From: Thiospirochaeta perfilievii
GTDB taxonomy: Bacteria; Spirochaetota; Spirochaetia; DSM-2461
Reading direction: 5' to 3'
Assembly (NCBI RefSeq): GCF_008329945.1
Contig: NZ_CP035807.1
Coordinates: forward strand, 620,001-684,000
Length of the DNA stretch: 64,000 bases
Within the stretch, counting starts at the first letter, position 1; the number at the start of each line of letters is the position of its first letter. The translations under genes and the position numbers were made by a program. Below, piece by piece: positions 32,797-35,591 of this stretch. The notes beneath the pieces were generated by a model. The model did no database searches and was not told where the DNA came from. It saw only the letters and a program-made list of their open reading frames with translations.

Positions 32797-34089
32797 TTAA
32801 TTATTTAAATATTTATTTATAGACTCAGCTATTGTACTATATATCATATTCCGTCTAACATAATCATTTTCTAATAGAGTAAACCTAAACCCTTTTAAAT
32901 CTGAATAAAACCCGGAAAGTGGAACAACACATATTCCAGTAGAAGCTAAAAGATAGTATACAAACCGCTTATCAGAAGGTACATTTTTAACCTGAGAAGA
33001 AATATACTCTTCAACCTCTTTATTATCTATATCCAGAACTCCATTATCGCAAAGATCCTCAAATATTACTGAGAAGTATAGGGCCCCTCGAGGTTTTATA
33101 CATGTTACGCCCTTAACCTTAGAGAGTATAGAGTGTGCTTCCTCTGCCCTATCTGAAAATATTTTTGAACGACTATCAATATGTCTCTTATATCTTTTAT
33201 CCCCTAAAATCTTAGGTAGAACTAATTGGGGTAGTGTTGTAGAACATACCTCTAACCTTTTGGCACTAATAATAGACTCTATATATTTATTAAACTCTTC
33301 ATCCCTATGTCTATTATATACCTCTATCCAACCACACCTGGATCCTGGCCATGGAACCTCTTTAGATAGGCTTCGCATTGAAATACCAGGAACTTGATTA
33401 ATAACAGAACTTAAAAAGGTCCAGTTAGTATCTGGAAAAGTAACATTTGCATAGGTCTCATCGCATATTATAAAAAGATCATACCTTTTAGCTATATCTA
33501 CAATTTCCATTAATATCTCTTTTGTATAGACCGCACCTGTAGGATTATCTGGATTAATTAACAATATTCCAGCAATTGAGTCATTATATTTAACCTTACT
33601 CTCTAAATCATCTATATCTGGAAACCATTTGTTATGGGGATCAAGATTATAGGTTAGATGGGAATACCCTGAGTGAGCTGCCTCTGCAGATGAGTGGGTT
33701 GAGTATGCTGGAGATGGGCCTAATATTCTAGACTCCCTTTTTAGATAACTATAGACCTTACTAATAGCATCACCTAAACCATTAAAAAATATAATATCAT
33801 CCATGGTGATATCTATACCTTGTCTACTATTAACTTCATCTGCTAAGAAACTTCTAGCCTCTAAGTCTCCTTGGCTATCAGTATATCCATAACTAATACT
33901 CTCCCCTGCAGCCTCTTTTACAATATCCCTTATCCAGGGAGAGATCTCTTCACCCTTTAATATTGGGTCACCAATATTTTCCCAATAAATCTCCTGCCCC
34001 TTAGACTGAATAAATCTAGCTATCTTAACAATCTCCCTAATTTCATAGGTTAATTGTCCCGCTCCTTCATGTAGAATCTCTCTTCTCAT
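32797..34089 (-). CDS. PLP-dependent class I/II aminotransferase
   Basis: A 430-residue fold-type I aminotransferase. INPDNPTGAVYTKE holds the conserved Asn, ICDETYANV the Asp that contacts the pyridine nitrogen, and SLSKEVPWPGSRCGW the Lys that binds pyridoxal phosphate. FINGLGDAIS-like sequence (FFNGLGDAISKVYSYL) replaces the usual TxGA motif. The amino acid used cannot be read from the sequence; it resembles alanine/aromatic-type enzymes. A good ribosome site (AGGAGAAAGAT) precedes the ATG. A terminator and leader peptide frame upstream (34124-34245) suggest control by attenuation. Confidence 0.8.
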   Translation of the reverse strand: MRREILHEGAGQLTYEIREIVKIARFIQSKGQEIYWENIGDPILKGEEISPWIRDIVKEAAGESISYGYTDSQGDLEARSFLADEVNSRQGIDITMDDIIFFNGLGDAISKVYSYLKRESRILGPSPAYSTHSSAEAAHSGYSHLTYNLDPHNKWFPDIDDLESKVKYNDSIAGILLINPDNPTGAVYTKEILMEIVDIAKRYDLFIICDETYANVTFPDTNWTFLSSVINQVPGISMRSLSKEVPWPGSRCGWIEVYNRHRDEEFNKYIESIISAKRLEVCSTTLPQLVLPKILGDKRYKRHIDSRSKIFSDRAEEAHSILSKVKGVTCIKPRGALYFSVIFEDLCDNGVLDIDNKEVEEYISSQVKNVPSDKRFVYYLLASTGICVVPLSGFYSDLKGFRFTLLENDYVRRNMIYSTIAESINKYLNN

Positions 34090-34123
34090 ATCTTTCTCCT
34101 ATTAACAGGTCAGAGGAATATGT

Positions 34124-34157
34124 AAAAAAAAAGCCACAGTCCTCTGACTGTGGCTTT
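34124..34157 (-). terminator. Attenuator-type terminator upstream of the aminotransferase gene
   Basis: GCCACAGTC (34133-34141) pairs with GACTGTGGC (34146-34154), extended by AAA/TTT, and on the minus strand it is followed by nine T. The nearest gene upstream of it on the minus strand is a promoter with a leader frame, not another operon, because the gene at 34344 reads the other way. So it lies in the leader of the aminotransferase transcript and would cut transcription before the gene. Confidence 0.75.
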
Positions 34158-34170
34158 ATTATATAAACAT

Positions 34171-34282
34171 AACAACTCACCACAGAGAATTTATTACTGA
34201 GGCTTTGGCTGAGTTGTTTAATTGTAATGCTTTATAAGTATTCATTGTTAAAACTATATATCCAGATAAGATATATGGTCAA
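34171..34282 (-). promoter_or_regulatory. Promoter and leader stem of the aminotransferase transcript
   Basis: On the minus strand -35 TTGACC (34282-34277) and -10 TATAGT (34258-34253) are 18 bases apart. A 9-base stem follows: AACAACTCA (34218-34210) with TGAGTTGTT (34179-34171). Inside, CTGTGG at the end of the leader frame can instead pair with CCACAG, the 5' arm of the terminator, giving an antiterminator choice. Confidence 0.6.
34177..34245 (-). CDS. Putative 22-residue leader peptide
   Basis: A short frame with ATG at 34245-34243 and TGA at 34179-34177; it begins MNTYKALQLNNS and ends VINSLW. It starts 7 bases after the -10 box TATAGT, so it would be read from a leaderless mRNA. Its stop codon lies in the 3' arm of the leader stem and its final Leu-Trp codons lie in the segment that can pair with the terminator arm, so ribosome position could set the terminator choice. 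No single amino acid is strongly enriched (four Asn, three each of Ala, Ser, Leu), which leaves the sensed signal open. Confidence 0.45.
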   Translation of the reverse strand: MNTYKALQLNNSAKASVINSLW

Positions 34283-34343
34283 CTAATTAGTTGAAAAAAA
34301 TTAATATCTCGAATTAGATTGTAATTTATAATATAATATATTT

Positions 34344-35591
34344 ATGGATAAAAGAATTCTTCTATTAGAAAAAAATGATCTCTTTGGTAGAGCAATAAAA
34401 TACAAGATTGAATCCCAGGATGAGTACCAAGTAATTTGGTATAAAACATATGATAAATTTATAGAAGCTGGCCATGATTATAGAAAGATTCAACTAGGGA
34501 TTATCGATTACAATATACCAGATTCTAATGATGGAAAAATATTAGAGTACTTTCATGAAATTAAAATTCCCCTAGTTTTATTATCAGAAAAGATAACCCA
34601 TGATATACAGGAGAAAATATGGTCTTTAAAGGTTATTGATTATATTCTAACTGGGAATAATAACTCTTTAGACTCTATTGTTGATGTTACAAATAGATTT
34701 TTTAATAACCCTAATATTGGAATATTAGCAGTGGATAACTCTAAGGAGTCTAGACGTCACTTAAAAAAACTACTAAAACTACATCGATATACAATTTATG
34801 AAGCCTCTACAGGAGGTGAAGCTTTAGAAATTCTAAACGATAATTTTGATAAAATTCAGATGGTTATTACAGACTATATGGTTGATGATATAGATGGTTT
34901 ACAATTAACCGAAATTATTAGGGAGCGCTACCCTATGGATAGGTTAGCTATTATAGGTATTTCCGATAGGGGAAATCACACTTTAAAAATCCAATTTATA
35001 AAAAATGGAGCCAACGACTTTCTATCAAAACCATTTATTAGCGAACTATTATACTGTAGAATAACCCAAAACCTTAAAGTTATAGAGTATTTTAAACAGA
35101 TAAAAGAGTTAGCTGTAATAGATCAGTTAACAAAACTTAATAATAGACATTTTTTAAAAGAGACAGGTTCATACCTATTTGAAAATGCAAGACGACACGA
35201 TCTATCCCTTGTAACAGCTATGATAGATATTGATGATTTTAAGTATATTAATGATACCTATGGCCATGATGCAGGAGATATTGTTTTAAAAGAGGTCTCT
35301 TTAGAGTTAAAGTCATCTGTAAGGAAATCGGATCTTGTGATAAGGTTTGGGGGAGAAGAGTTTCTTATTATTGGTAACAACCTTGATCCTAATAGGGCAA
35401 AGGAGTTCTTTGAACACATTCTAAAAAAGATATCAGAGAGAAAAATTTACATTGGAAAACAGAGAATAACAGTAACTGTAAGTATTGGTGTATGTACAAA
35501 GATGAAGGATAGTCTAGAAGAGATTATAGTAAGCGCAGATAAAAAGTTGTATATAGCTAAGTCCAAGGGTAAAGAAAGGGTTTGTTTATAA
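34344..35591 (+). CDS. Response regulator with two receiver domains and a GGDEF diguanylate cyclase domain
   Basis: A 415-residue protein. A first, diverged receiver domain occupies about residues 1-115 (LLLEKNDLFG, GIIDYNIPDSNDG), a second receiver about 127-245 (ILAVDNSKES, VITDYMVDDIDGLQLTEII, then LSKPF), and a GGDEF domain follows from about 260. The GGDEF core is FGGEEFLIIG, an active GGEEF type, with DIDDFKYINDTYGHDAGD upstream, so it should make c-di-GMP from GTP. No Shine-Dalgarno sequence is present; TATAAT (34332-34337) ends 6 bases before the ATG. Its stop overlaps the ATG of the HDOD gene (TAATG), so the pair is probably one unit. Confidence 0.85.
   Translation: MDKRILLLEKNDLFGRAIKYKIESQDEYQVIWYKTYDKFIEAGHDYRKIQLGIIDYNIPDSNDGKILEYFHEIKIPLVLLSEKITHDIQEKIWSLKVIDYILTGNNNSLDSIVDVTNRFFNNPNIGILAVDNSKESRRHLKKLLKLHRYTIYEASTGGEALEILNDNFDKIQMVITDYMVDDIDGLQLTEIIRERYPMDRLAIIGISDRGNHTLKIQFIKNGANDFLSKPFISELLYCRITQNLKVIEYFKQIKELAVIDQLTKLNNRHFLKETGSYLFENARRHDLSLVTAMIDIDDFKYINDTYGHDAGDIVLKEVSLELKSSVRKSDLVIRFGGEEFLIIGNNLDPNRAKEFFEHILKKISERKIYIGKQRITVTVSIGVCTKMKDSLEEIIVSADKKLYIAKSKGKERVCL

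Follow-up and report, generated by a model that had tools for sequence, protein, structure and literature searches.

Why should an intrinsic terminator stand between a promoter and the enzyme gene that follows it? This question is raised by a locus on the minus strand of the window, as we call the entire 64,000-nucleotide stretch of Thiospirochaeta perfilievii DNA analyzed here, where a promoter, a short open reading frame and a terminator succeed one another ahead of an aminotransferase gene. The first-pass annotation had read this arrangement as an attenuator, and conservation among relatives upholds that reading. On sequence grounds, the window leader is very probably a transcription attenuator worked by the ribosome, with charged alanyl-tRNA as its signal and an alanine-aminotransferase-like gene as its target. 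The computed features that carry this interpretation are the layout of the leader, its recurrence, its enrichment in alanine codons with free third bases, and pairings that exclude one another at fitting positions of the ribosome.

A short frame and a terminator precede an aminotransferase gene

The gene (32797..34089, minus strand, ATG at 34089) encodes a class I/II aminotransferase of 430 residues that belongs to the PRK06855 (NF005334) family, its profile score of 651.2 bits lying above the curated cut-off of 443. A second NCBIfam family, the alanine aminotransferase PRK08363, matched under its cut-off, and the nearest solved structures in a profile search were the AlaA glutamate-pyruvate aminotransferase 4cvq (5e-53), 1xi9 and alanine aminotransferase 2 (3ihj). 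By this homology the enzyme probably forms alanine, and alanine synthesis is its likely function because an alanine leader precedes an AlaA-like gene. The ribosome-binding site of the aminotransferase, AGGAG at 34096..34100, could be read directly from the sequence.

The elements that had been described upstream of this gene were all found on the minus strand. The promoter (34253..34282) consists of a -35 hexamer TTGACC at 34282-34277, a spacer of 18 bases and a -10 hexamer TATAGT at 34258-34253, and is followed after a gap of 7 bases by a leader frame of 22 codons and a stop (34177..34245; ATG at 34245, stop TGA at 34179-34177) with the peptide sequence MNTYKALQLNNSAKASVINSLW. Judging by the spacing between the -10 hexamer and the ATG, the frame is apparently leaderless. 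The strong terminator expected ahead of the gene occupies 34124..34157, with a stem at 34157-34130, nine T after GGC and a T-tract extending to 34124, and the upstream neighbor, a response regulator/GGDEF gene at 34344-35591 on the plus strand, is divergent as annotated.

The window frame contains 3 alanine codons among its 22, at codons 6 (34230-34228), 13 and 15, and these do not form a run. The presumed sensing codons are GCC AAA GCC (Ala13, Lys14 and Ala15; 34201..34209), which occupy the same place as the alanine codons of the two congeners, namely Ala14-17 in L002 and Ala13, 15 and 17 in L003. At the local alanine frequency of 5.1%, the probability of at least 3 alanines among 21 residues is 0.089, and that of at least 2 among the 5 residues at the congeners' run position is 0.024. 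We read the window leader as a weakened member of a family of alanine leaders, and we infer the alanine response of this species from its relatives, its own alanine signal being reduced.

A promoter with a closely following ATG is unremarkable by itself, as the pattern gave 91 matches in the species' own genome compared with 77 for the reversed control, and a general claim from this pattern in that genome was rejected on those numbers. Among the 30 of these 91 sites that were read, only at the window leader does a short frame lead into a terminator, and a slightly looser pattern applied to the 64 kb window also returned this leader as the sole combination of a short frame and a terminator. Elsewhere in the same genome, long frames begin a few bases past TTGAC...TANNNT (L129, L131, L132, L135, L136 and others), and leaderless genes may be common there.

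The leader recurs among spirochetes

To survey the region upstream of the gene in relatives, orthologs were drawn from whole genomes (some match in 60 of 61, with L001-L025 close), from the class (41 of 394 genomes at E 1e-120) and from named genome contigs (80 loci). Five loci were excluded by a start-position or identity rule (L024, which starts at residue 37, L026, L027, L029 and L030), L028 had no match, and the removal of 8 duplicates left 113 of 121 loci. The 113 upstream regions were sorted by genome kinship or record into 51 from spirochetes and 62 others, for example from planctomycetes, Desulfobacterota, Hydrogenedentota and Patescibacteria.

The same leader layout is present in 37 of the 51 distinct spirochete loci and absent from 12. 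The remaining loci, L044 and L105, are cut by contig ends and, by eye, keep a terminator-like hairpin; the genome of L044 carries a leader at the end of another contig. Frames were picked by taking the best-scoring promoter that has an ATG 3-10 bases past it, frame content being ignored, and this rule returned short frames in 33 of 51 spirochete loci versus 2 of 62 other loci; the leaders of L022, L034 and L038, which the promoter rule had missed, were placed by eye, and that of L025 by a weaker promoter score. At least three alanine codons within six codons occur in 32 of the 33 spirochete frames, the exception being the window, and in neither of the 2 non-spirochete frames. Similarly, 37 of the 51 spirochete loci have a terminator no more than 230 nt from the gene start, versus 4 of the 62 other loci. 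The distance from the -10 hexamer to the ATG is 6 or 7 bases in 29 of the 33 spirochete leaders, a conserved spacing that favors the leaderless frame claimed in the first-pass annotation. Examples of the leader peptides are MNKISELFTVCNLSAAAAAAPSEGIAG (L006), MTKYIPASRISLGAAAAS (L011) and MIVRVCDTSILLAAAAAAP (L023). When the leaders of relatives were aligned, the check that the annotation had itself suggested, both the frame and the alternative pairing proved to be conserved.

Five of the loci without a leader (L010, L012, L013, L014 and L015) have a TTGACC promoter 6-7 bases before the aminotransferase's own ATG and look as if the leader had been cleanly removed. This spacing agrees with transcription always starting at the ATG, with some doubt left by a GG-rich stretch upstream. 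A similar spacing of promoter and ATG is seen in the planctomycete loci L053 and L095. The last 60 bases before the aminotransferase in L072 hold a TTGACA promoter and, after it, a frame of two codons, ATG CAT TGA, which is perhaps the remnant of a leader.

Alanine-rich frames before non-spirochete orthologs were inspected in L052, L078, L083, L098 and L111 and rejected as alanine leaders, as none combines a leaderless promoter with a terminator, with L083 kept as a candidate. In this planctomycete locus, an alanine-rich frame of 28 codons lies about 220 bases before the gene, after a GGAG resembling a ribosome-binding site and without a clear terminator, and is possibly an independent alanine leader. 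A search for the leaderless alanine-run pattern across 388 genomes of the class matched 82 genomes, in 19 of which the match lies, by eye, at the aminotransferase gene; one further match, in G298, is at a contig end and probably belongs to the same gene. Many other matches fall away from this gene, among them a pair in G281 and G247 that by eye resembles a leaderless gene with a twin-arginine signal, and the absence of such leaders before other genes cannot be claimed from this class-wide pattern.

Alanine codons as the probable signal

The peptide of the window had been described as poor in any single amino acid, with the conclusion that the signal is not a plain count of charged tRNA. The relatives do not bear this out, as the place where a ribosome would stall is occupied in their frames by runs of alanine codons. 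Counted over the runs of 35 leaders (all but L001 and L003), alanine is encoded by GCA 61 times, GCC 60 times, GCG 46 times and GCT 17 times, and every one of the first five positions of the run has a mixture of codon types. Of the residues after the start, 25% (214 of 842) are alanine, and outside the run the peptide shows little conservation across the leader set. From the varying third bases of the alanine codons together with the enrichment in alanine, we conclude that selection acts on the amino acid.

Mutually exclusive pairings in the leader RNA

The window leader can be divided into regions that pair in alternative ways. In the protector stem (region 1:2, 34171..34218), AACAACTCA at 34218-34210 pairs with TGAGTTGTT at 34179-34171, which is the 9-base stem that had been reported to contain the leader stop and does. 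The antiterminator (region 2:3, 34148..34185) joins CUGUGGU at 34185-34179 to GCCACAG at 34154-34148 and has an additional inner helix (34175-34168 with 34163-34156). It includes the annotated pairing of CTGTGG (34185-34180) with the 5' arm of the terminator, made through CCACAG at 34153-34148, and it is conserved. The terminator itself constitutes region 3:4.

The 157-nt leader is more stable than dinucleotide shuffles of itself (z -3.15), none of the 200 reaching its stability, and the 2:3 pairing of the window, at -10.9 kcal/mol, was reached by 11 of 500 shuffles. When the ribosome was placed with either Ala13 or Ala15 at its A site, folding of the free RNA gave an antiterminator of 15 pairs at -13.4 kcal/mol; with the ribosome at the stop, region 3 was left unpaired and no antiterminator was present. 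Once fully transcribed, the terminator of the window was more stable than the antiterminator in every ribosome state tested, so the antiterminator, as in other attenuators, has to form earlier in order to prevail.

The same alternation was assessed across the leader set, in which a terminator was found by rule in 36 of 37 leaders (L035 being the miss). The median energy of the 2:3 pairing in these 36 leaders is -16.0 kcal/mol for a ribosome halfway through the alanine run versus -2.05 for one at the stop, and the pairing beats 95% of dinucleotide shuffles in 28 of 36 leaders and 99% in 24. In 28 of 36 leaders, the first base of region 2 falls at -20 to +13 relative to the stop, within the stretch that a terminating ribosome covers. 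When three groups of leaders were aligned, 20 of 20, 72 of 77 and 123 of 130 cells of the 2:3 helix were paired, compared with at most 9 of 20, 36 of 77 and 67 of 130 when the partner was shifted one or two columns. No cell in any of the three groups showed changes in both bases of a 2:3 pair, a result that is expected, though the expectation is not proof, because region 3 must fit two partners.

Eight of the 36 leaders do not fit the masking of region 2 at the stop. The strongest computed 2:3 partner lies past the stop in L004, L019 and L031-L034, where the simple model fails to discriminate, and inside the frame in L025 and L042, too far upstream for masking at the stop. In L023, L025, L032, L033, L040 and L042, no fewer than 94 of 500 shuffles give a pairing as strong. 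L004, L031, L032 and L033 belong to one genus, and in all four the terminator finds its strongest partner well past the leader stop; an extra hairpin is visible by eye between the alanine frame and the terminator of L004, to which the three-region model is a poor fit. L019 has two successive terminator-like hairpins before the gene, and an alternative pairing between them reaches -18.7 kcal/mol (0 of 500 shuffles). Some of these poorly fitting leaders have, by eye, an additional hairpin or terminator, and their mechanism may be more complex.

The start site, translation, stalling, regulatory outcome and enzyme substrate would then combine as follows. RNA polymerase would start at or beside the leader ATG, and a ribosome would load on the 5'-terminal AUG without a Shine-Dalgarno sequence, as the spacing suggests. 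When charged alanyl-tRNA is scarce, the ribosome would stall on the alanine codons and region 2 (CUGUGGU and the bases after it) would be available for pairing with region 3, so that no terminator would form and the gene would be transcribed. When charged alanyl-tRNA is plentiful, the ribosome would reach the stop and cover region 2, regions 3 and 4 would pair, and transcription would end. Without any ribosome, region 1 would hold region 2 and the terminator would be expected to form as well.

Alternative explanations

The reduced alanine signal of the window allows a reading in which the attenuator of this species has drifted and now senses general translation speed or another codon, no longer specifically alanine. 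The absence of an alanine run, with only Ala13 and Ala15 at the sensing place of a leader whose antiterminator and terminator are intact, is what such drift would leave behind; however, both congeners keep alanine at the same place, and the two alanine codons of the window sit where a stalled ribosome frees region 2, and we consider drift unlikely. Leader peptides of about this size (22 codons) can stall ribosomes with a cofactor, and the first-pass annotation had named an arrest peptide as one possible signal. A nascent-peptide switch of this kind, responding to a small-molecule or antibiotic cofactor, would suit the conserved C-terminal end AAAAAI.E.RG/D in one group, the Treponema-like loci, but the peptide differs between groups beyond the alanine run, and the conserved C-terminal codons also encode region 2, so that their conservation is explained at the level of the RNA. 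Given the poor conservation of residues beyond the run, the proposal of an arrest peptide did not hold up, and we regard it as very unlikely.

The annotation's other suggestion, a small-molecule-binding RNA, fared no better, as no Rfam family reaches its threshold. A ligand-binding riboswitch accompanied by a chance short frame would be consistent with a leader that is more stable than its shuffles and with an antiterminator and terminator that alternate, but the frame, the ATG spacing and the alanine codons are conserved whereas the leader sequence is not. Moreover, Rfam 15 (T-box and other RNA switches) returned 0 matches at gathering score in the whole window; at E 10 the leader region gave 14 matches, all below threshold, and the best of these, the trpB motif (25 bits against a gathering score of 59), was rejected as reflecting a hairpin followed by a terminator. 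A riboswitch is in our judgment extremely improbable. It is scarcely more credible that the element encodes a small RNA, complete with terminator, and precedes the aminotransferase by chance. Promoter and terminator do bound a transcript of about 120 nt, and attenuated leaders can act in trans, as described for rnTrpL in Sinorhizobium in the cited passages of PMC7298713; against this, the element travels with the aminotransferase gene across spirochetes, its frame is conserved, and the interval between the two contains no start of another gene.

Relation to known attenuators

Attenuators of the E. coli trp and his type have regions that pair as 1:2, 2:3 and 3:4, with region 2 masked by a ribosome at the stop. 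Enteric attenuator leaders carry a ribosome-binding site, unlike the probably leaderless frame of the spirochetes. The spirochete leader shares the 1:2, 2:3 and 3:4 anatomy and the masking of region 2 with the trp and his attenuators and with that of ilvB1 in Mycobacterium tuberculosis (PMC13236596), whereas all of these sense other amino acids. Leaderless frames are also represented among known systems. Polycysteine leaderless short-ORF attenuators occur in mycobacteria (Canestrari et al. 2020, as mentioned in PMC9094748), and the spirochete leader resembles these cys leaders, as described there, in having a short, apparently leaderless frame that contains a run of a single amino acid and would answer the supply of that amino acid. 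It differs from them in its amino acid, alanine in spirochetes versus cysteine in mycobacteria, and in its clear terminator and antiterminator, as the cys leaders are without obvious terminators according to the cited part of an earlier survey (PMC1262725). In the trpL/peTrpL system of Sinorhizobium meliloti (PMC7298713), the RNA begins with the leader ATG, and the leader, once terminated, is itself a small RNA; stalling at the sensing codons favors the antiterminator there as it would here, although that attenuator has tryptophan codons, precedes a tryptophan operon and belongs to a different phylum.

The uORF attenuator of mycobacterial whiB7 is reported to answer alanine starvation (Poulton et al. 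2024, cited in PMC13236596, PMC11550727 and PMC10727445). In these accounts, the whiB7 uORF has a transcription factor under its control and responds to many inhibitors of translation, whereas the spirochete leader stands directly before an enzyme gene and has a dedicated alanine run. Leaderless genes are on record for some spirochetes in the cited passages of PMC3160421. An alanine attenuator before an aminotransferase was not found in the literature searched, most subscription papers being outside reach, and the 2010 attenuation survey of Lopatovskaya et al. could hold an earlier prediction. Within that literature, the mechanism is known, the amino acid and the phylum are new, and the frame is probably leaderless. 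The finding would extend amino-acid attenuation to alanine and to spirochetes, would point to the enzyme behind spirochete alanine synthesis, and would offer natural variants in the form of complete leaders, the weakened signal in the genus of the window, and five genomes with the promoter directly before the ATG of the enzyme.

A possible pairing between the terminator and the region before the gene

A further complementarity links the terminator to region 5 (UCCUCUGAC, 34109..34117), which lies directly before the ribosome-binding site of the aminotransferase. Over 9 bases, region 5 is complementary to GUCAGAGGA at 34148-34140, comprising the end of the 5' arm, the loop and the start of the 3' arm. 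The relation is found in all 3 members of the genus, the two congeners using different bases, and compared with shuffles it reaches 5% or better in 15 of 36 leaders and 1% or better in 12 of 36 (the window, L002, L003, L005, L008, L011, L017, L020, L037, L038, L042 and L081). It hints, though we think it rather doubtful, that in spirochetes the terminated leader of a dedicated alanine attenuator with a leaderless frame has an additional role. Once released, the leader RNA could block translation of the read-through mRNA in trans; alternatively, the pairing could act in cis and hold the antiterminated form in place. If true, either would add a second layer on top of attenuation. In L020, the complementarity between the terminator and region 5 extends over about 25 pairs.
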